The notes beneath the pieces were generated by a model. The model was not told the DNA's origin. It worked only from the letters and a program-made list of their open reading frames with translations, and searched no databases. A stretch of 32,164 nt of DNA from a virus, in the IMG/VR virus record IMGVR_UViG_3300029319_000262, positions 1 to 32,164 of that record. One strand, given 5' to 3'. Positions within the stretch are counted from its first letter, which is position 1. Each line of letters starts with the position of its first letter. Below, in pieces: positions 1,958-19,723 of this stretch. The translations under genes were made by a program, and so were the position numbers.

Positions 1958-4900
1958 ATGTTTAATTCAATGGGGTCATCCAATCCGCAAGACCTTGGTA
2001 ATGGCGGAGAAATATCTGGAGACTTAACCGTAACCGGAAGTCTGAACGTAGGCGGTTCAATTGGCTTAACGCTATCAGAAGTTATACAAGGCACATCAAC
2101 GATAGATGTAAACTCAACAGAAGCATTGGTTATAAGGAAGGACGGTGATGCTGGTGACGTAATGGTTGTGGATACGACTAATGAGCAAGTAAAGGTTGGA
2201 GATAACTTTATTGTTAATGCGTCTGGAACTACTCCAGTATTAACAATTACTGGTACAAGAAATGATATATTATTTACAGAATCTGATACTACCAACTTAA
2301 ATACACTTGTAAGACATCAAACTGGTTTATTAAGAATAGACACAATTAATGATGCTTTAGATACATCTCAAATAAGATTTACCATTGACCATTCAAATGG
2401 TAATGTATCCATAGGTTCGGCTGAAGATTCTTCAAAATTTTTACAATTTAAAAGAGGTGGAAGTGGAAGTGGTGTTGTTAGAGGTAGTATAGGCACTAAC
2501 AATAGCAAATTAACTTTTATAGGTGGAAGTGGTACAAGTTCTCATATGACTCTGGATTCGTCAGGAAATTTTGGTATAAATAAAACAAGCCCAGAGGAAA
2601 AGCTACACGTTGCTGGTAATGTAAAATTATTTGAATCTGGCAATACAGCAGATAAAACATACTCATCTACTGGTGCTGGTTTATTTCTTACTTCATACCA
2701 ATCAGATAGTGGTTCTCCATATACAAAGACATCAGATATTGTAGCTGGTTCAGATGGCACAGTTCCTTCAGAAATAAGATTTTTTACAAGAACAAGTGGT
2801 AGCAGTTCTTTGACAAAAGCACTTATTTTAGAATCAAATCAAAATGCAAGTTTCTCTGAAGACGTAACTGTTGGTGCTGAAGTTGGTTCTGGGGAGTTTG
2901 CTAAGTTAGCATTTAAAGCAAATACTTCTGCATCTGGTAGGTATGCTAATATAACAAAAGAATATGATAGTCCTTTTACATTTCAAATTGAAGCAAGTAG
3001 TAGTGCTACTACAGCACCAATAGTTTTTAAGAACAGCAACGCCCAAACTGCTTTGACACTAAGTTCTTCAGCAGATGCTACTTTTGCTGGTGATGTAATT
3101 CTATCCAAAACTACAAACTCAGCAATATACCAAGATGACTCAAGTGAATTTTTAAGATTGGGTGTAGGTGGTAGTGGCAATGATACTCCACGAATAGAAA
3201 TATTTGGAAAAGATTATGGTGGGTCAAATGCTGGTGGAAATATATATATAGTATCTGGTGGTGATGGAAGTGCAACAAGTGGTGACATATTACTTGGTGC
3301 TGACCAAGGTGCATTTGCAGAGCATATGCGTATTACTAACTCAGGGGATATTGGTATAGGTTTGAACAATCCGGGAGATTATTACGCAACACAATTAGTT
3401 GTTTCTGCTCCAGATAATGGTGGAATGACATTTGTTTCTGGTAATACAGGTCACGCAAGTGGAATATTTTTTGCTGATGGAACTACTGGCAGTGGAGATT
3501 CGGCATATAGAGGTCAAATGGTATATGACCATAATAATGATTCATTTGGTATCTGGACTGCTGGTACTAATGCAATAAAGATAGACTCAAGTCAAAATTT
3601 TGGTATAGGAGAAAATGACCCCGACAAAAAATTGCACATTAAATCTTCAACATCTGCTGATGGAATTGTTATTGAAAATACTAGTACAGGATCAACACAA
3701 ATTAGATTTGAGGCTGATAGTAGTACTTTCAGAGGTTTAATTGGTATAGACGATAGTGATGGAAATGCTTTCCTTTCATCAACTGCCAGTAAAGCCTATG
3801 TAATGTGCTTGAGGTCTGAAGGTGAAATGCACTTTGGTGTTAATGGAAACAATACAAGATTCATACTTGATGAAAATTCCAGAATCTCACTATCTAATAA
3901 TGATAGTGGTACATCTAATACCATCTTTGGAAGAACTGCTGGTGATGCAATAGTATCTGGCGGAAACAACAATACTCTCTTTGGTTTTAATGCTGGCAAT
4001 TCAATTACTACTGGAGATGGTAATGTCCTTTTAGGTTATCGAGCTGGTGAAACATTTGATACAAATGGTAATAATATTGGTATTGGTAGTCAGGCTTTAG
4101 GTGGAAATGGAAATGCAAGTAAGTGTATAGCCATAGGAACCAGTGCATTAATCGGTAGTTTAAGTTCTGCATCAGATGGTTCAGTAGCTATTGGACATCA
4201 AGCTCTTACAGCATTGACCTCTGGAGCAAATAATTTAGCCATTGGATTTGAAGCACTAAAAGGTCATACAACAGGCAATAGAAATATTGCCATTGGTAAT
4301 GGGGCAATGGATGGAAATGGTGGTGCAACTGTAAATAACTCCAATGACAATACTTTTCTTGGATTTGATGCTGGTGGTGGAACTTGGACTACAGCAGTTT
4401 GTCAGTACAATGTAGGTATTGGTAACTATTCATTAGATGGTGCTATGAATGGTGCAAACTTAAATACAGCAGTTGGATATGGTTCATTGAGTAGTTTAAC
4501 TGAAGGAGACTCCAACGTAGCAGTTGGAAGTAGTGCTTTAGCAGATAACACTTCAGCCAGATACAATACATCGATAGGTGCAAGTTCACTTCAAAGAAAT
4601 GTTAATGGCGAACATAATGTTGCTATTGGTCTTTCTGCTGGTAAGTTTAGTGCCGCTGGGGCAGGAAATGCAACTTCTCCAGACCAATGTGTTATTATAG
4701 GTTCAAACTCTGAATTTTCAAGTACTGCACCAACAAATCAAATTGTAATTGGTTTTAATGCAGATGGGTTAGCAGATAACTCAGTAACACTTGGTAATGC
4801 AGATGTAACTGATGTTTATATGGCACAAGATGGAGAAGCAACTATTCATTGTGCTGGTATTCAATTTCCAGCAAGTCAAGTTGCTAATGGTGGAGCAAAT

Positions 4901-5314
4901 GTACTTGATGATTACGAAGAAGGTGAACATACAGCAACTGTTGTTGGTGCTACTTCTGGAAACTTTGTTGTTAATTCTACATTTAACAAATTTAGATATA
5001 CAAAAATAGGAAGGATTGTTCATATACAAGGTTTAATAATTACTGATTCAGACAATTCTACATCAGGTTCATTAAGAATTTCTTTACCTTTCACAATAGG
5101 AGATGGTTCTGGAGGCTCTGAAAGAAGTTTTGGTAGTGTTGCTTTACAAGCTCACGGAGGAACAATATCTGGTAATCTTAATGCTGTTTTAGAACCCGGA
5201 AATGCTTTTTTTGAAATTATTGAAACTCAAGATAGTGGAGCAACGAATACTATATCTGAATCAGATGTTGATAGTGCTTTCAATATAGGTGTTGATTTTA
5301 CTTATACTGTATAG
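1958..5314 (+). CDS. Large fibre protein with YadA-head-like repeats
   Basis: The product has 1118 residues and is very rich in Gly/Ser/Asn/Thr. Residues 1-640 carry recurring beta modules of the kind 'SSGNFGINKTSPEEKLHVAG' (about 201-220) and 'SSQNFGIGENDPDKKLHIKS' (about 544-563), separated by 'ADATFAGDV' modules. Residues about 655-945 contain 14-16-residue repeats with AIG/VAIG-xxAL cores, like the left-handed beta-roll of trimeric autotransporter heads (YadA/Hia). Residues about 985-1118 hold a C-terminal domain with DDYEEGEHTATV and YTKIGRIVHIQG, a pattern I associate with marine phage fibres. Trimeric assembly and receptor binding are inferred. Its location beside the capsid gene rather than after the tail genes is unusual. 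Confidence 0.75.
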   Translation: MFNSMGSSNPQDLGNGGEISGDLTVTGSLNVGGSIGLTLSEVIQGTSTIDVNSTEALVIRKDGDAGDVMVVDTTNEQVKVGDNFIVNASGTTPVLTITGTRNDILFTESDTTNLNTLVRHQTGLLRIDTINDALDTSQIRFTIDHSNGNVSIGSAEDSSKFLQFKRGGSGSGVVRGSIGTNNSKLTFIGGSGTSSHMTLDSSGNFGINKTSPEEKLHVAGNVKLFESGNTADKTYSSTGAGLFLTSYQSDSGSPYTKTSDIVAGSDGTVPSEIRFFTRTSGSSSLTKALILESNQNASFSEDVTVGAEVGSGEFAKLAFKANTSASGRYANITKEYDSPFTFQIEASSSATTAPIVFKNSNAQTALTLSSSADATFAGDVILSKTTNSAIYQDDSSEFLRLGVGGSGNDTPRIEIFGKDYGGSNAGGNIYIVSGGDGSATSGDILLGADQGAFAEHMRITNSGDIGIGLNNPGDYYATQLVVSAPDNGGMTFVSGNTGHASGIFFADGTTGSGDSAYRGQMVYDHNNDSFGIWTAGTNAIKIDSSQNFGIGENDPDKKLHIKSSTSADGIVIENTSTGSTQIRFEADSSTFRGLIGIDDSDGNAFLSSTASKAYVMCLRSEGEMHFGVNGNNTRFILDENSRISLSNNDSGTSNTIFGRTAGDAIVSGGNNNTLFGFNAGNSITTGDGNVLLGYRAGETFDTNGNNIGIGSQALGGNGNASKCIAIGTSALIGSLSSASDGSVAIGHQALTALTSGANNLAIGFEALKGHTTGNRNIAIGNGAMDGNGGATVNNSNDNTFLGFDAGGGTWTTAVCQYNVGIGNYSLDGAMNGANLNTAVGYGSLSSLTEGDSNVAVGSSALADNTSARYNTSIGASSLQRNVNGEHNVAIGLSAGKFSAAGAGNATSPDQCVIIGSNSEFSSTAPTNQIVIGFNADGLADNSVTLGNADVTDVYMAQDGEATIHCAGIQFPASQVANGGANVLDDYEEGEHTATVVGATSGNFVVNSTFNKFRYTKIGRIVHIQGLIITDSDNSTSGSLRISLPFTIGDGSGGSERSFGSVALQAHGGTISGNLNAVLEPGNAFFEIIETQDSGATNTISESDVDSAFNIGVDFTYTV

Positions 5315-8000: not shown

Positions 8001-8479
8001 TAAACGCATCCCAAATGCGTGAAGTTATCACTGATACATTAAATGCCTTGGGGTCCAAATACGCCGATCCCAAGGCTATTGAGCTTATATATAATACTGG
8101 CTTAGTAGAATCAAAGTACATTTACATAAAGCAGATTAAAGGACCAGCTCGCGGCTTTTTCCAAATGGAATTCATCACTGCAATGGATATTTGCACAAAC
8201 TACTTGCAATATAGATCAAGCTTAATGAGAAAAATAGCAGAAGTGTCTATGGTCGATATTAAATACTTTGTAAATCCAAAAGAGGATGATTGGCAGCACA
8301 TACTTACTAGTAATCTGTATGCTCAAATATGCATGACGCGGATGCACTATAGACGCGTACCTAAACCTCTTCCACGTACCTTAGAGGAGCAAGCGATTTA
8401 TTGGAAAAGTTTTTATAATACTTACAAAGGGAAGGGTACGCCACAACATTTTGCGGAAATAGTGAGTAAGTATGGATGA
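7997..8479 (+). CDS. Lytic-transglycosylase-like endolysin
   Basis: The product has 160 residues, with a GTG start overlapping the previous stop (GTGA) and GAGGA 7-8 bases upstream. Residues 35-56 read GLVESKY...GPARGFFQME, with Glu38 placed like the catalytic Glu and ARG-x2-Q like the second motif of SLT/goose-lysozyme-type enzymes (E-S..., G-x-xG-x2-Q, followed by T-A-x-D). The rest is helical with aromatic residues (YWKSFYNTYKGKGTPQHF). It would cleave peptidoglycan at lysis after holin action. No signal peptide is visible. The family call is by motif only. Confidence 0.65.
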   Translation: MINASQMREVITDTLNALGSKYADPKAIELIYNTGLVESKYIYIKQIKGPARGFFQMEFITAMDICTNYLQYRSSLMRKIAEVSMVDIKYFVNPKEDDWQHILTSNLYAQICMTRMHYRRVPKPLPRTLEEQAIYWKSFYNTYKGKGTPQHFAEIVSKYG

Positions 8480-14086: not shown

Positions 14087-16894
14087 ATGGCACTAAGTAA
14101 CGCACCTAAAAGATCTAATGTTTCTGAAAATTGGTTATTTGATTTTACTGCTGATAATAATAACTGTATAGATTTTGATGGTAGTGACGATAATATAATA
14201 TTTGGTGATATATTAGGTTCTGAGGTCAATTTTACTATAGAATTTTGGTGTAAAGCAGATTCAAAAAATAGTGGTGTAATAATTCAATTATCATCTGGCT
14301 CTGGAGAATCAGAAGCTGAAAATGTTTCATTTAATGTTAATTTGCAAAGTGGAGGTGAGTTTCGTTTGTTTTATGAGTATGGCAGCGGCTCAAATGAAAC
14401 TAATACTACAAGTAGTTTTAATTTATCAGAAGATACGTGGACGCACGTTGCAGTTGTTCGTGATGATGCAAGCGGGAATGCATTGTTTTATAAAAATGGC
14501 GTATTAGTTGAAACTGAGTCTGCGAGCAATGATCCAACTGGTGGCACAAGCACAGATGCAAAAATGACCATAGGTAATAATTTTAATAGCAATAATGGAT
14601 TTAATGGTGAGTTAGCTCATGTCAGAGTATGGAATGTGGCAAGAAGTGCAGACGAAGTATCTTATTATTATAATCGATTAGTTGATAGTACTCATACAGG
14701 CTTAGTTGGATATTGGAAATTGGACGAAGGTACTGGAGTGAGTGTTGCTGATTCAAGCTCAAACAATAACTCTGGAACAATAAGCGGAGCTTTGTGGTCA
14801 GTAGGTGGCTTTGATCAATTTATACATGCTTTTGGTTTATCATTTAAAGACACAACAGTCTCTAGTAACTACTATGTTGGGTCAGTTTTAAATAATTCAA
14901 TTGCTATAAGAGATAGTATAGATATTAACTCAGGTCAATCCAGCACATCTAATATAACAATAACAAGTGCAAATTTTAAAAAACACGGAAGTGAGTTTTA
15001 TAAATTATTGTTTAATGGCACTAATAACTTTCATAATAAAGAAGTGCGTGTGTTTGCACAATACGATTATGAAGATACACTAAGCAACTGTCAGCAAATT
15101 TTTTCTGGTAGACTTGTAGATGTACAATTAGATGGCAATGCAAACATTACTATGCAGATAAATTCACATCGACCGTGGGATGGAATAGAATTTCCTCAAA
15201 CAAAACATGAAGTAAAAAATGTTTATGAGCCAGTAGTATATGGACAATACAATCCTTCAGACTTGTCTGCTTCTCCAAAGCTTGCGTCATATGGTGGTTT
15301 GTTTCCAGTTCCAGTAATAGACGTATCAAGTTACACTGAGGATGGTGCTACGCGAGGTCATATCAATACTATAATGCCCAAAGCGTATTCTGCTGGAGAC
15401 AACAATCATTTACACATTCATATGGATGATTATTTTTTTGGAATAAGATTAAGTGTGAGTGAAAGCACTATTGATCACGCAACGGTTTTAGAGCATGGTG
15501 TTAATATTTTAAAAACATCAACACATTATTTTGCTATGGGGCATTTTGTTCCGTCAGTTGGCGTTAATGAATTTGGTGTTACAATGATGAGTAATATGGA
15601 AAATGCTTTTATAAGATCAAGTGACGGAAGTATTGATACTTCTACGTTTGCAAGCCAAACTATGAGCAGCGATGATCAAAAAGCGTATATACAACATCAA
15701 TCATATAGAAAAGAATTTTCAAAAAGCACATTAATTGGCGCCAGAATTACAGTAGAAGCAGATCGTAATGATGGTAATACAAGTGATACAAACCAATATG
15801 ATATTACTGCAAGAAAAAATGGAAGCACTCTAAATTCCAATAATATTTCGGTAAACTCTAATACACAAATTAGTCAAGCGGTTGGTGGTGGAATTAAGAC
15901 AATCTCTTTTTCTACGGAGCCAGAAGCTCCAACACAAATTACCTACGAATTTAGTGCAGATGAAGCTACCACATACCCACATACATTAAAAATTTATGGT
16001 ATTACAACTAATGTAAAAATTGATTTACATGATAAAGACGATGGCGATGATGATGCTGAAAGACTTGCAAATAAAAAATTTTATAGTGGTGGTGCTGGAC
16101 TTACTGCATCGTGGGATTCAGATGCAATTGTGCATGGTCACGACGCTCATAGAGATTTATTACAACGCTTTGCGGGTATATCTAGCGCAGATCCAGAAAA
16201 CTGGAGTTCTCTTGTTACAGATAGGACCAGAAATACAGCAGATAATGCAGATATTGACACATGGAAGATAAGATATTGGCAATTAGAACCAACTTCGTTA
16301 AAAAGTATTTTAGATAAAATGGCTTATGAGTTTTGTTTTAATTATAAAATTTCAGCATCTGGTAATTTAAAATACATACATGTTAAACGTAGTTCTGAGC
16401 TTGCTGCAACTGTAACATTAAGTAAGGCTGATATAAAAGATCTACAATTAAAAACAACCGGTTTGAGTGAAGTTGTTACAAAAATGGAGATAGCAAACAA
16501 TTTGCATCCAGCTGTAAATAATAAATATTATAACTACACTACAAATACCAATACAACATCACGAGCAAAATATAATTTAGGTGACAAGGAAGGCTTTCAA
16601 CAAATTAATTTGGACATGAATGTAGGAGAAATTCCGTCAACAGCAGACGCAGATCTAAACGCAGATTGGTATTCTTATAGAAATCATTTAATAGGAGATA
16701 TGAAAATAATTGTAGAGTGTCAAATAATAAATTTAGCCAAAGGATACCAATTAGAAACTGGAGACATAATATCGTTTACAGATATGCCAATAGAAATGTT
16801 TGGTACGGATTTTAGCGCATCTAAATTTTTTATTATTACTGAATATAATCGATCAATCGGAAATGTCCGTATTGTAGCAAGAGAGGTGTCCTAA
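14087..16894 (+). CDS. Tail hub/distal tail protein with inserted LamG domain
   Basis: The product has 935 residues. The N-terminus (NAPKRSNVSENWLFDFTADN) is interrupted at about residues 26-242 by a concanavalin/LamG-type domain: CIDFDGSDDNIIFGD, FTIEFWCKAD, WTHVAVVRDD, GELAHVRVWNVARSADEV and VGYWKLDEGTG appear in the order seen in LamG_3 proteins. Tail sequence resumes at AFGLSFKDTTVSSNYYVGSV. The C-terminal 250 residues are hub-like (SLKSILDKMAYEFCFNYKIS, GYQLETGDIISFTDMP). LamG domains bind sugars or proteins, so it may contact the host surface. The position after the tape measure supports a baseplate or hub role. Confidence 0.72.
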   Translation: MALSNAPKRSNVSENWLFDFTADNNNCIDFDGSDDNIIFGDILGSEVNFTIEFWCKADSKNSGVIIQLSSGSGESEAENVSFNVNLQSGGEFRLFYEYGSGSNETNTTSSFNLSEDTWTHVAVVRDDASGNALFYKNGVLVETESASNDPTGGTSTDAKMTIGNNFNSNNGFNGELAHVRVWNVARSADEVSYYYNRLVDSTHTGLVGYWKLDEGTGVSVADSSSNNNSGTISGALWSVGGFDQFIHAFGLSFKDTTVSSNYYVGSVLNNSIAIRDSIDINSGQSSTSNITITSANFKKHGSEFYKLLFNGTNNFHNKEVRVFAQYDYEDTLSNCQQIFSGRLVDVQLDGNANITMQINSHRPWDGIEFPQTKHEVKNVYEPVVYGQYNPSDLSASPKLASYGGLFPVPVIDVSSYTEDGATRGHINTIMPKAYSAGDNNHLHIHMDDYFFGIRLSVSESTIDHATVLEHGVNILKTSTHYFAMGHFVPSVGVNEFGVTMMSNMENAFIRSSDGSIDTSTFASQTMSSDDQKAYIQHQSYRKEFSKSTLIGARITVEADRNDGNTSDTNQYDITARKNGSTLNSNNISVNSNTQISQAVGGGIKTISFSTEPEAPTQITYEFSADEATTYPHTLKIYGITTNVKIDLHDKDDGDDDAERLANKKFYSGGAGLTASWDSDAIVHGHDAHRDLLQRFAGISSADPENWSSLVTDRTRNTADNADIDTWKIRYWQLEPTSLKSILDKMAYEFCFNYKISASGNLKYIHVKRSSELAATVTLSKADIKDLQLKTTGLSEVVTKMEIANNLHPAVNNKYYNYTTNTNTTSRAKYNLGDKEGFQQINLDMNVGEIPSTADADLNADWYSYRNHLIGDMKIIVECQIINLAKGYQLETGDIISFTDMPIEMFGTDFSASKFFIITEYNRSIGNVRIVAREVS

Positions 16895-17946
16895 TGGCAA
16901 ACAATTTACCCATAGCAAGAGTTAGATTTTATTGTGATCAAATATCATACAGGCTTTCACGCGGAATACCAGTAAATGGTCGCTACGATGTACAAGCAAC
17001 CAACACAGGCAATAACTTAGTAGGAATAAAAAGCGGTGGTGGCAGCGAAGAAGACCTCTTTGATATGCGACCACATAACTTAGTGACGTTTGATACTTCC
17101 GCTTCAACAGCTTCTAAAGCAGATCATGTGGTATTGACTTTAGATATGATGGGAGAGACTTCATCTAAGCGTTCTTTTATTGCAATATTAAATCATAACC
17201 TAGCAACAGCTACTGGAAAGATAAGAATTGCGGCTAGTAATACTGAAAGTCATGTTACCAATGATGATTTAACTGGCGCTACAGCTATAAATTGCACAGA
17301 AGTTGTAAACGCTGGTGGTGCTGATGGTTCGTCTAATCTATTCACACCCGCTGCTGATGGAAGTACGATTGTAACATGTGCAGAGAGTGATTTGCGCTAT
17401 TGGGGTATACAGTTTGAAGGTAGTAACAGTAATAATTTTAGTAGCACGGATTTAACCGTAGGCTGTGTACTCGTTGGCGAGTTTTTTGATGCAGCTCCTG
17501 TAGATGTAAATTTAACCAGAACCATAGATTTTGATGGTGTAAATGTTCAAGAAAGCATAGGTGGGCAAAGATTTTCAACAATGTTAAATCACGGTCGTCA
17601 AACATCTAGTACATCTAAATCTCCATTTGTTACTACTACATCACAACAACAAGTGTTTGGCGGCCGTATGATTTATGATATGACCATGAGTCATGTAGCG
17701 CATGATGAATTAATGCCAACCCAATATAATACGTTTGACCCTACTGGAGATTCGTTTGTTAATGATGTGTGGAATATCACTAATGGTAATCACTTGCCAT
17801 TTATATTTAGCATTGATAACACACATACTGGAAGCAATGCGGAAAGTAGTCATATCTTTGCGAGGTTTGGTCAATCAGATTTAAAGATGAATCAAGTGGC
17901 TAGTAATCGATTTAACTTTAAATTACGTATAGAAGAAGAGTTTTAA
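16894..17946 (+). CDS. Minor tail / tail tip protein
   Basis: The product has 350 residues. It starts at an ATG overlapping the previous stop (TAATG). It is a beta-rich sequence (SYRLSRGIPVNGRYDVQATN, HVVLTLDMMGETSSKRSFIA, RYWGIQFEGSNSNNFSSTDL), and the C-terminus ends FNFKLRIEEEF. It is the last gene of the late block, followed by a terminator. The family is not recognised with certainty. A receptor-binding or tail-tip role is the natural reading of its position, but a small baseplate protein is equally possible. Confidence 0.5.
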   Translation: MANNLPIARVRFYCDQISYRLSRGIPVNGRYDVQATNTGNNLVGIKSGGGSEEDLFDMRPHNLVTFDTSASTASKADHVVLTLDMMGETSSKRSFIAILNHNLATATGKIRIAASNTESHVTNDDLTGATAINCTEVVNAGGADGSSNLFTPAADGSTIVTCAESDLRYWGIQFEGSNSNNFSSTDLTVGCVLVGEFFDAAPVDVNLTRTIDFDGVNVQESIGGQRFSTMLNHGRQTSSTSKSPFVTTTSQQQVFGGRMIYDMTMSHVAHDELMPTQYNTFDPTGDSFVNDVWNITNGNHLPFIFSIDNTHTGSNAESSHIFARFGQSDLKMNQVASNRFNFKLRIEEEF

Positions 17947-17947
17947 T

Positions 17948-17967
17948 CTGTGGAAAACTGTGGAAAA
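17948..17967 (+). repeat. Tandem CTGTGGAAAA repeat, left of attP
   Basis: Two perfect head-to-tail copies of CTGTGGAAAA lie two bases after the last late gene. A related pair is present on the other side of the tRNA fragment (18141-18160), and a 19-bp inverted copy occurs at 30074-30092. Candidate integrase arm-type sites or DnaA-like boxes (one mismatch from the strict TTATCCACA box on the other strand). Confidence 0.6.
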
Positions 17968-17973
17968 TACCAT

Positions 17974-18003
17974 GCATTTTTGTGCTTTTTTGTGCATATT
18001 TGC
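17974..18003 (+). repeat. 10-bp-period TTTTGTGC repeats near attP
   Basis: On the minus strand this reads as three adjacent 10-mers, GCAAATATGC, ACAAAAAAGC and ACAAAAATGC (consensus xCAAAxAxGC). The 14-mer TTTGTGCATATTTG at 17989-18002 recurs, inverted, inside the repressor promoter (20553-20566). One-per-helical-turn repeats next to an att site are typical of excisionase or integrase-accessory binding; that role is inferred. Confidence 0.45.
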
Positions 18004-18023
18004 TATAAATTAGGAATAACAAA

Positions 18024-18047
18024 AAACCCACTAAAATCAGTGGGTTT
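18024..18047 (+). terminator. Rho-independent terminator of the late operon
   Basis: AAACCCACT (18024-18032) and AGTGGGTTT (18039-18047) make a 9-bp stem with the loop AAAATC. The T run is part of the 3' arm on the plus strand, and an A run precedes the stem, so it can act in both directions. It closes the late genes before attP and faces the leftward integrase transcript. Confidence 0.8.
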
Positions 18048-18069
18048 CTCGTCGGTAAATTACACATAT

Positions 18070-18113
18070 GCGCCCGTAGCTCAGCTGGATAGAGCGTTGG
18101 ATTCCGGTTCCAT
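18070..18113 (+). other. Putative attP core: 5' half of a tRNA-Arg(CCG) gene
   Basis: GCGCCCGTAGCTCAGCTGGA begins a tRNA: 7-base acceptor strand, D arm (GCTC/GAGC), and anticodon stem-loop with TTCCGGT, anticodon CCG at 18104-18106. Homology stops around 18112-18118; no T arm or 3' acceptor strand follows, so it is not a working tRNA gene. A tRNA fragment beside a tyrosine integrase, flanked by paired repeats, is the classic sign of an attachment site. Normally the 3' part of the tRNA is carried; here it is the 5' part through the anticodon loop. Confidence 0.7.
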
Positions 18114-18140
18114 AGGTTCTCCGTCAATAAAACGCATCCC

Positions 18141-18160
18141 CTGTGGAACTATGTGGAAAT
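18141..18160 (+). repeat. CTGTGGAAC/ATGTGGAAA repeat, right of attP
   Basis: CTGTGGAACT and ATGTGGAAAT lie in tandem with a 10-bp period, matching the pair at 17948-17967 in sequence and orientation. The tRNA fragment lies between the two pairs, the arrangement expected of P and P' arm-type integrase sites. Confidence 0.55.
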
Positions 18161-18194
18161 ATACCGCTGTTGTCTTCTGTTTCGTGGTAAATCA

Positions 18195-18596
18195 TTAGCC
18201 GAATACTAGTTTGCCAAATAGCGCAAATTGCACAATCTCATCTGCGTCACCAGCATCAATAATACTCAAATCTAATGCTGTATCTCTGCGCGCACCATCA
18301 TAGTATACTTGTACTGAATTTCTATAAATCCACTCTTGCAGACCCTTCTGTAAGTTATCCTGACTAAGATATAATACTGTTTTATCCTCACCAGATATGG
18401 TCATCTCTAACATACCACCAATAGCAAGCCACTCATACTCATGTTCTATTTTTGTGCGGCCCTCTGGTAGTTTGCCAGTATCTCCACCTAAACCTTTTAC
18501 CGATGTAACCCAGTAGTTCACACCGCCTTCAAAGGCGGTGCAAAGCAGATCCATCATATCTTGTACAGATAATTCGACTTCTATGTTAACTTTCAT
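18195..18596 (-). CDS. Conserved hypothetical protein between integrase and attP
   Basis: The product has 133 residues. Its ATG overlaps the integrase stop (TAATG), so it is translated from the integrase transcript. The N-terminal motif LSVQDMMDLLCTAFEGGVNYWV recalls a family of small phage proteins with an 'I.D.L..AfEGGs.YW' signature. The middle resembles a small alpha/beta domain (GMLEMTISGEDKTVLYLSQD). The function is unknown. Placement between integrase and attP is unusual, since that gap is commonly empty or holds xis. Confidence 0.65.
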   Translation of the reverse strand: MKVNIEVELSVQDMMDLLCTAFEGGVNYWVTSVKGLGGDTGKLPEGRTKIEHEYEWLAIGGMLEMTISGEDKTVLYLSQDNLQKGLQEWIYRNSVQVYYDGARRDTALDLSIIDAGDADEIVQFALFGKLVFG

Positions 18597-19723
18597 TACG
18601 CGACTCCCATTTTACGATTAAATGCATTATCTACACTATCATTTATCTTATCCATTGTAGAGTGAGATACTGGAGCATAATGCTTACTTACTACTGACTT
18701 GGTAGAATCACCAATAGCGTACCCAGCAAGCTGTATATCGCCGTTTTCTTCTTCAGCCAACTGTGCCTTCAACCTACGTAAATCGTGGCACGTAAACTCA
18801 ATATTAGTGATCTCAGCAATACTTGCAATTATGCGTCGCAGCTTCTTGTAAGCAAATGGTAACGGCTTTTCGTAGCCAGCGTCTTTCCATTTTTTTAGAA
18901 TACCCATAACAATTGGATGCTGCTTGGCCAGTTTGCGCGTCATCTTGCGCTTTGGTAGTAAGCTAATTGTGCGCTTATTAAAATCAACGTGATGCCATTC
19001 TAGCTCTTTTTTACGGTTACGATAATTAAAGCCAAGTAGCTCTTTAGCTCTCGCGCCTGTATACGTGTATAGCGTGATTAAGTCCTTTTGATATTCGCTT
19101 AGGTCAGGATGATTAAATAATGTAAGTATTTCTTGATCGCTCCAAATTTTAAATTCAATGTCCTCACATTCAGATGCATTATATTTGTCATTCTTTGTAA
19201 CGACTTCAAAATTAACCATACCACGCCCTTGCGGTCCGCCATTTGTAGTTGCCCACATAAATATGCAACGCAAGTCGCGTAAATAGCTATTGATTCCATT
19301 CCGGGTACAAGTAAGTGAGCGATGAGCCTTGTAAATTTCCCATCCCATAAGACCATCGCGCTTCATACCGCGTATATTATCTACTGGTGTATCAAGTGGA
19401 AATACTTCCTCAACACTATTCATTACTGCATTATAACGAGAACTTGTTAAAGCATTCAGCTTCAAATCAAGCACGTTAGCTGTGTATGCATTAAACACGT
19501 CTTGTATGGTGACCGTTTCATCGGCCATGTAATACATAGACTTCCAGATTGGGTTATTGGTTTTGTGGTAATGCGCTATGTTTTCCCAGCGGCGCAGCTC
19601 TTCATTAGCGTCATGTTCGTTGCTAAATGTAGCTTTCTGCCACTTAACCTTGACCGGGTCATAGTAGGATAGCACATATGGTTTTTTTGCGTTTTTTTCA
19701 GCTCTTTTATTAATTGATGCCAT
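18596..19723 (-). CDS. int: Tyrosine integrase
   Basis: The product has 375 residues. AGGAG lies 9-10 bases before the ATG on the minus strand. An N-terminal arm-binding-type region (about 1-65) is followed by a SAM-like core-binding domain (about 70-175) and a catalytic domain with Arg225 (YTGARAKELL), Lys258/260 in the beta hairpin (LPKRKMTRK), His313-x-x-Arg316 (CHDLRR) and Tyr349 (KHYAP). The third conserved position, usually His or Trp in a G-H-S motif, is Asp339 here (AIGDSTKSV). It should integrate the phage at a tRNA-Arg gene via the fragment at 18070-18113. Confidence 0.92.
   Translation of the reverse strand: MASINKRAEKNAKKPYVLSYYDPVKVKWQKATFSNEHDANEELRRWENIAHYHKTNNPIWKSMYYMADETVTIQDVFNAYTANVLDLKLNALTSSRYNAVMNSVEEVFPLDTPVDNIRGMKRDGLMGWEIYKAHRSLTCTRNGINSYLRDLRCIFMWATTNGGPQGRGMVNFEVVTKNDKYNASECEDIEFKIWSDQEILTLFNHPDLSEYQKDLITLYTYTGARAKELLGFNYRNRKKELEWHHVDFNKRTISLLPKRKMTRKLAKQHPIVMGILKKWKDAGYEKPLPFAYKKLRRIIASIAEITNIEFTCHDLRRLKAQLAEEENGDIQLAGYAIGDSTKSVVSKHYAPVSHSTMDKINDSVDNAFNRKMGVA

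Follow-up and report, generated by a model that had tools for sequence, protein, structure and literature searches.

The window, a stretch of 32,164 nucleotides of viral DNA analysed over its full length, very probably carries the attachment site (attP) of a temperate tailed phage of Marinimicrobia that integrates at the host tRNA-Arg(CCG) gene by way of the 5' half of this gene, with positions 18070-18112 of the + strand as its identity block. Comparison with the complete host gene revealed that these positions are identical to bases 1-43 of the 75-base Marinimicrobia tRNA-Arg(CCG), with the first mismatch at 18113, four further agreeing bases and no similarity beyond. The block runs from one end of the tRNA through the anticodon arm, as in attPs of the anticodon-loop type, and comprises the acceptor 5' strand, the D arm, the anticodon loop (18102-18108, with the CCG anticodon at 18104-18106) and the anticodon stem minus the last base of its last pair, the T arm and the acceptor 3' strand being missing. 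In the related phage contig L014 the anticodon stem of the tRNA-Arg half is whole, whereas the last pair is missing in the window. An earlier sequence-only reading had placed the 5' and not the 3' half of this tRNA, positions 1 to about 43 including the CCG loop, at 18070-18113; comparison with the host tRNA bears out the choice of half, its content and its start, and shortens its end by one base. As expected for half a tRNA, ARAGORN reported 0 complete tRNAs in the window, and Rfam returned nothing at gathering score and no tRNA even at lax settings.

A scan of the viral contigs with the tRNA 42-mer returned a single match, in one related phage (L037/L014), the window's own record being possibly excluded from such scans. 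Two trivial origins of the half were considered and rejected: an assembly accident, given that L014 is an independent contig of 36.5 kb in which the same half recurs, with its strand arranged as in the window relative to the integrase, and a chance likeness to a tRNA, given that the 42-mer is found exactly in 14 genome_contigs records, 14 of 14 titled Marinimicrobia or Neomarinimicrobiota.

The attP block is located between a + strand gene, probably structural, that ends beside it (16894-17946) and whose last codons persist in host scars of relatives, and a - strand pair encoding a small protein matching phrog_2355 (18195-18596) and a tyrosine integrase of 375 aa (18596-19723). The block thus lies outside the integrase gene, about 480 bp past its stop. 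The integrase was assigned to the tyrosine recombinase family by its match to PHROG 1 (E 1.1e-13) and by the family alignment A1, the Pfam PF00589 match (E 2.2e-4) falling short of its cut-off (21.5 of 27.1 bits). In A1, residues R225, H313, R316 and Y349 are invariant across 12 integrases and fit the catalytic R, H-x-x-R and Y motif of tyrosine recombinases; a profile of the integrase gave no match against solved structures. In the virus contig a gene for the major head protein lies close to the start and one for the terminase runs off the end, so that the genome is incomplete; no close relatives of this phage group were found in the phage record collection searched. Also, a protein of 1118 aa with adhesin-like repeats (NNTLFGFNAGNSITTGDGNVLLGYRAG), encoded at 1958-5314, matches tail-spike and virion families.

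Arm-type repeats flank the core on both sides, as in anticodon-loop attPs. A far repeat pair on the + strand (CTGTGGAAAACTGTGGAAA, 17948-17966) recurs as a direct repeat, the near pair, at 18141-18159, at a distance of 193 bp that is kept in relatives. The best repeat around the core was surveyed in 16 attP sites (the window, 14 phage contigs and the genome G148): the spacing is 193 bp in ten of them, 191 bp in five and 202 bp in one, L032, where the pair is weak. Eleven of the 16 sites reach a score of at least 17/20, the window scores 16/20 and L029, L030, L031 and L032 score 12-14/20, while among 1562 control stretches of the same contigs plus L006 and L008, seven reach 16/20, none of these spaced 193, and none reaches 17/20. 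The repeat sequence itself varies with the integrase clade (TTTTCCACAG, TTTGCAACAG, ACATAATGTC and others). The core centre lies 55-57 bp from the start of the near arm in nine sites (the window, L014, L003, L004, L002, L005, L009, L011 and L026); the distant relative G148 deviates, with 103 and 90. Repeats and core spacing are features of an arm-and-core attP. The only part common to 5'- and 3'-half attPs is the anticodon arm (18097-18113, + strand), which is the probable core and crossover region. A repeat search further detected three phased 10-bp repeats of TGCATTTTTG type at 17973-18002 (+ strand).

Between the far arm and the core, an inverted repeat followed on the - strand by a T-run (18019-18052) forms a hairpin that is probably the terminator of the integrase-strand transcript, although a terminator scan of this region of the window did not report it. 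Since the T-run is on the - strand, the hairpin would be predicted to halt integrase-strand transcripts and not a transcript entering the tRNA. The same hairpin is present in the relatives carrying 3' halves, where it follows the tRNA and is oriented as a terminator. This terminator-like hairpin sits across attP from the integrase gene, and integration would part the two, an arrangement reminiscent of lambda sib retroregulation.

The host integration gene, which the sequence-only reading had named as tRNA-Arg(CCG), was identified as such in Marinimicrobia: each of the 14 genome records matching the tRNA 5' bases contains the complete gene, and phage-host junctions were recovered at it. The upstream region could be read in 13 of the 14 loci, L043 being left out with 5 upstream bases. 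In three of these 13 (L041, L045 and L052) the phage hairpin module stands directly before a complete tRNA-Arg(CCG) (E = 2e-24 to 4e-40 with the module alone), in keeping with the earlier expectation that integration brings new upstream DNA to the host tRNA, and a fourth locus, L047, has a degenerate version of the module. Further out these three loci contain host genes and no phage proteins, so that the complete tRNA rebuilt at each junction is seen as a solo scar, left by relatives and not by the window phage. L048, a near relative of L045, shares its neighbour sequence on both sides and lacks the module. The arm repeats differ between L045 and L052, indicating that these scars stem from different phages, while L041 has lost its arm repeats and kept the AT-rich block and hairpin. 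The scars are the module and the delivered 5' half retained, with the rest of the prophage gone. Chimeric assembly, with the assembler jumping at the shared 42-mer, was rejected as an explanation, as the scar contigs run on past the module into host genes.

Searches for the remainder of such prophages covered both the scar surroundings and the phylum. No phage proteins were found near the scars in 10 of the 13 host stretches searched; of the other three, L114 and L115 are the two integrase contigs, and the weak matches in L062 come from a large phage protein of the 935-aa type and were taken as a shared domain. No displaced lone 5' half was found in the scar genomes: across the seven genomes searched, mismatch-free matches were intact tRNA-Arg genes only and matches with 2-3 mismatches were taken as other tRNA genes. 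The pattern scan derived from A1 retrieved no relative of the integrase in genome_contigs, and an integrase profile search retrieved 0 of 14 in the host genomes and, at 1e-5, 26 of 245 phylum genomes, only G148 and G118 exceeding 100 bits. In none of the 245 phylum genomes was a complete prophage with its two junctions found. Hence, of the prophages that the earlier reading had proposed to look for beside such tRNA genes, solo scars were found and a complete element with both junctions was not; neither was a complete prophage found elsewhere, which would have spoken against this target.

The bacterial anticodon-loop tRNA integrases treated by Williams in 2002 are said to cross over at the symmetric anticodon arm and to target tRNAs of several identities in a single integrase family. 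In these two respects the family of the window phage resembles them, its probable crossover region being the symmetric anticodon arm and its tRNA identities several. By analogy with such enzymes, from which the crossover point is inferred, the integrase would bind the paired arm repeats 193 bp apart and recombine attP with tRNA-Arg(CCG) at the anticodon arm, the 7-base loop serving as overlap and the stem as core sites. In the window the tRNA block occupies the long side of the scaffold, reversed with respect to the integrase strand, and the phage consequently carries the 5' half. Integration would rebuild the tRNA from the 5' half of the phage and the 3' half of the host, with the phage hairpin module upstream, so that the phage would supply all DNA upstream of the rebuilt gene and the host's own promoter would end up at the far prophage end with the displaced 5' half. 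Upon prophage decay, the module would remain fused to the tRNA.

The scars persist before a tRNA-Arg(CCG) gene found once in each of those assemblies, which suggests that this tRNA may be expressed with phage DNA upstream, via either a promoter or read-through. A promoter in the phage module is likely but unproven: a candidate directed into the tRNA half (TTGTGC-18 bp-TATAAA, 17980-18009, + strand) appears plausible by eye, without support from a consensus promoter scan of 17900-18250, which found nothing, and the upstream regions of 67 host-locus tRNA genes, inspected by eye, disclosed no clear promoter motif. A -10 box limited to the 5'-type modules was also examined and dropped: many 3' types show AAAAATAGCG where the 5' types have a ATAAATTA-like sequence, but TAAAAT occurs in 3' types too and the consensus scan was empty. 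Alternatively, integration may proceed as proposed and the module be no promoter, the rebuilt tRNA being expressed by read-through from the upstream gene, a phage gene in the prophage and a host gene in the scars. We regard this as unlikely, though by a long way not negligible. It would agree with the empty consensus scan and with the orientation of the upstream genes, which are co-directional with the tRNA in L041, L045 and L052, as is the phage gene at 16894-17946; yet L041 has kept the AT-rich block and hairpin despite the loss of its arm repeats, and in a lysogen no expression of late phage genes is expected. Furthermore, the rebuilt tRNA of the archaeal element pTN3 is said, in the portion of the review PMC8371274 available, to use the promoter of the element.

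Scars of the same kind occur at other tRNA genes. In DNA searches over the genomes, the tallies of which are lower bounds (mostly three first-look candidates were scored per genome), two tRNA-Met loci were flanked on both sides, with a 5'-type module upstream and a 3'-type module downstream, in G002 (93% to L012 and 81% to L011, respectively) and in G136 (84% to L027 and 90% to L026). At tRNA-Met, G013 has a 3'-type module and a decayed 5'-type one, and G149 a 3'-type module. The tRNA-Leu(TAA) scars are of the 3' type (G010 and G146), and those at tRNA-Leu(CAA) of the 3' type in G136 and of the 5' type, with arms, in G130. In G002 and G013 the 3'-type likeness extends beyond the arm, as far as the final codons of the phage gene (in G013 with 16 of 18 bases), and this extension into a phage gene end marks the direction of transfer as phage to host. 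Module matches away from tRNA genes in G209, G011, G143 and G092 were set aside as looking like chance.

These scars bear on the idea that the module before the host tRNA-Arg is native host DNA, captured by the phage along with the 5' half, and that the host loci are no scars at all. The lack of phage genes around the module and its occurrence at the same chromosomal place in several genomes would suit such an origin. However, the modules bear phage arm repeats, of different types in L045 and L052, the same gene context occurs without the module in L048, the tRNA-Met scars reach into a phage gene end, and in the 3' types the same hairpin module is placed downstream of the tRNA. A native module is thereby largely refuted and we consider it very improbable.

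Other arrangements were recorded among these loci. Within the first 650 positions of L111 (G146:C107), two consecutive 3'-type modules are found at tRNA-Leu(TAA); a complete tRNA goes with one of them, and the other has a lone 3' part with N after it. The arrangement may represent tandem scars or a collapsed element. Lone tRNA-Met 3' halves fused to a 3'-type module, away from any complete tRNA, were seen in L116 (G130:C17, about 8240-8400) and L119 (G149:C7, contig positions 50780-50930). In L132 and L148, a CTCGTCGAG / ATCGTCAAG motif like that flanking the phage tRNA blocks stands just before the host tRNA-Arg(CCT), possibly reflecting older scars.

Integrase scans retrieved 20 related phage contigs, and the stretch after the integrase gene was read in each. 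Eight carry a 5' half (tRNA-Leu TAA in L003 and L004; tRNA-Arg CCG in L014; tRNA-Met CAT in L012, L027, L029, L030 and L031), seven carry a 3' half (tRNA-Met in L002, L005, L009, L011 and L026; tRNA-Leu CAA in L032 and L033), two show no tRNA half after the integrase gene (L006 and L008) and three are cut off or unreadable there (L007, L010 and L013). In the frame of the cassette, the tRNA block lies between the core and the far arm, and its orientation sets which half is carried; relative to the integrase gene, the cassette of all five tRNA-Met 5' types is turned round, with the arms included where legible (L012 and L027). Opposite halves of tRNA-Met accompany integrases that are 96-97% identical, namely those of L011 (3') and L012 (5'), with 365 of 378 residues identical, and of L026 (3') and L027 (5'), with 362 of 378, and the scaffold of 191 or 193 bp is unchanged. 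The integrases of the window and of L002 (3', Met) share 337 of 375 residues. On an integrase tree of 22 rows the 5' label requires seven changes, at least five of them forced by well-supported branches, against an average of 7.4 for shuffled labels. Polarity is therefore switchable, one integrase family using both 5' and 3' halves. The earlier reading had allowed that the fragment might be a decayed phage-encoded tRNA with no role in integration; beyond the fact that a lone half is all there is, little speaks for this, and the arm scaffold, the position next to the integrase gene, the different tRNA halves that relatives hold in this position and above all the host junctions refute it to the point that its probability is close to nil.

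We tentatively propose, at somewhat below an even chance, that attP in this family is a switchable cassette: a fixed arm scaffold of 191/193 bp would repeatedly have received one or the other half of several tRNA genes, together with the matching upstream or downstream module. The phages would in this way be rewriting, upstream as well as downstream, the DNA next to the same host tRNA genes, and the loci scarred on both sides in G002 and G136 would be the birthplace of new attPs. If this holds, some Marinimicrobia tRNA genes run on domesticated phage promoters and terminators. Two observations on individual contigs are added here. In L005 and L009, GGTAGACACTTGGAATC on the integrase side of the anticodon arm, beside the tRNA-Met 3' half, resembles the 5' half of tRNA-Leu, as though the attP had once been of Leu type and had then become a Met-type one. 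In L006 and L008, two close integrase relatives, the stretch after 6125, between the integrase gene and the next phage gene, is devoid of tRNA piece and arm scaffold, attP being perhaps lost or elsewhere.

Use of a 5' half has a precedent in the integrase of pTN3 from the archaeon Thermococcus nautili, whose attP is located inside the integrase gene and has the tRNA 5' half with the anticodon, cutting the tRNA off from its original promoter (PMC5495485, as excerpted); the sections of the review PMC8371274 at hand state that the rebuilt tRNA is expressed from the promoter of the element. Similarly, the window attP has the 5' half including the anticodon, and the rebuilt tRNA would be parted from its original promoter. 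It differs in that the pTN3 integrase gene is split on integration, whereas the window attP lies beyond the integrase stop, and in that a switch to 3' halves is not mentioned for pTN3 in the passages of PMC5495485 and PMC8371274 available. In bacteria, the same portions of PMC8371274 describe the 3' half as the one carried, so that the tRNA keeps its promoter 'with very few exceptions', and 5'-half attPs as seldom met. Unlike the bacterial anticodon-loop integrases, which according to these excerpts normally carry the 3' half, the family of the window phage alternates between 5' and 3' halves; the work of Williams (2002) on those integrases is cited in the excerpts of PMC8371274 and PMC4383910. 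The tRNA-dependent lysogeny of actinobacteriophages, as presented in the accessible part of PMC10865867, rests on a whole phage-encoded tRNA with a tested phage-borne promoter. It is alike in that the tRNA supply of the lysogen would rely on phage DNA, and unlike in that a whole tRNA is supplied and no host gene is rebuilt, the window, which is not a complete genome, containing no complete tRNA.

The 5'-half principle is thus known but rare; what is new is that polarity switches on a scaffold that stays fixed and that chromosomal scars lie on both sides of a tRNA gene. No paper on tRNA-integrating phages of Marinimicrobia or on polarity switching within one integrase family was found in the literature searched, the searches being limited and absence thereby not proven. 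The integration gene ties a marine phage group to the uncultured phylum Marinimicrobia/SAR406, which was listed among new viral hosts by Roux in 2015 (PMC4533152, in the part available). The system also adds a bacterial example of this rare use of a 5' half, in which phage DNA is now the upstream region of a tRNA gene present once in those assemblies. How integrases change target and polarity becomes directly testable, since almost the same integrase occurs with either half of one tRNA while the scaffold is unchanged.

The frequency of lone 5' halves was evaluated in the viral contigs. With the tRNA-Met(CAT) control, built on one tRNA-Met sequence and regular expressions, the 5' pattern gave 25 stretches, of which 21 are complete tRNAs and four are lone 5' halves, all four from the family of the window phage. 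The 3' pattern gave 86 stretches, and the 80 loci classified comprise 61 without a 5' box, 17 complete and two at an edge; of the 61 lone 3' halves, 51 are clean and 10 have D-arm-like remains, and five are from the same family. For tRNA-Leu(TAA), a test of like design classed 7 of 27 as lone 5' halves, two from this family (L036 and L039) and five from other contigs. Lone 5' halves are therefore rare and perhaps not unique to the family of the window phage. The five from other contigs (L287, L290, L299, L304 and L305) may be further 5'-half attPs or unusual tRNAs.
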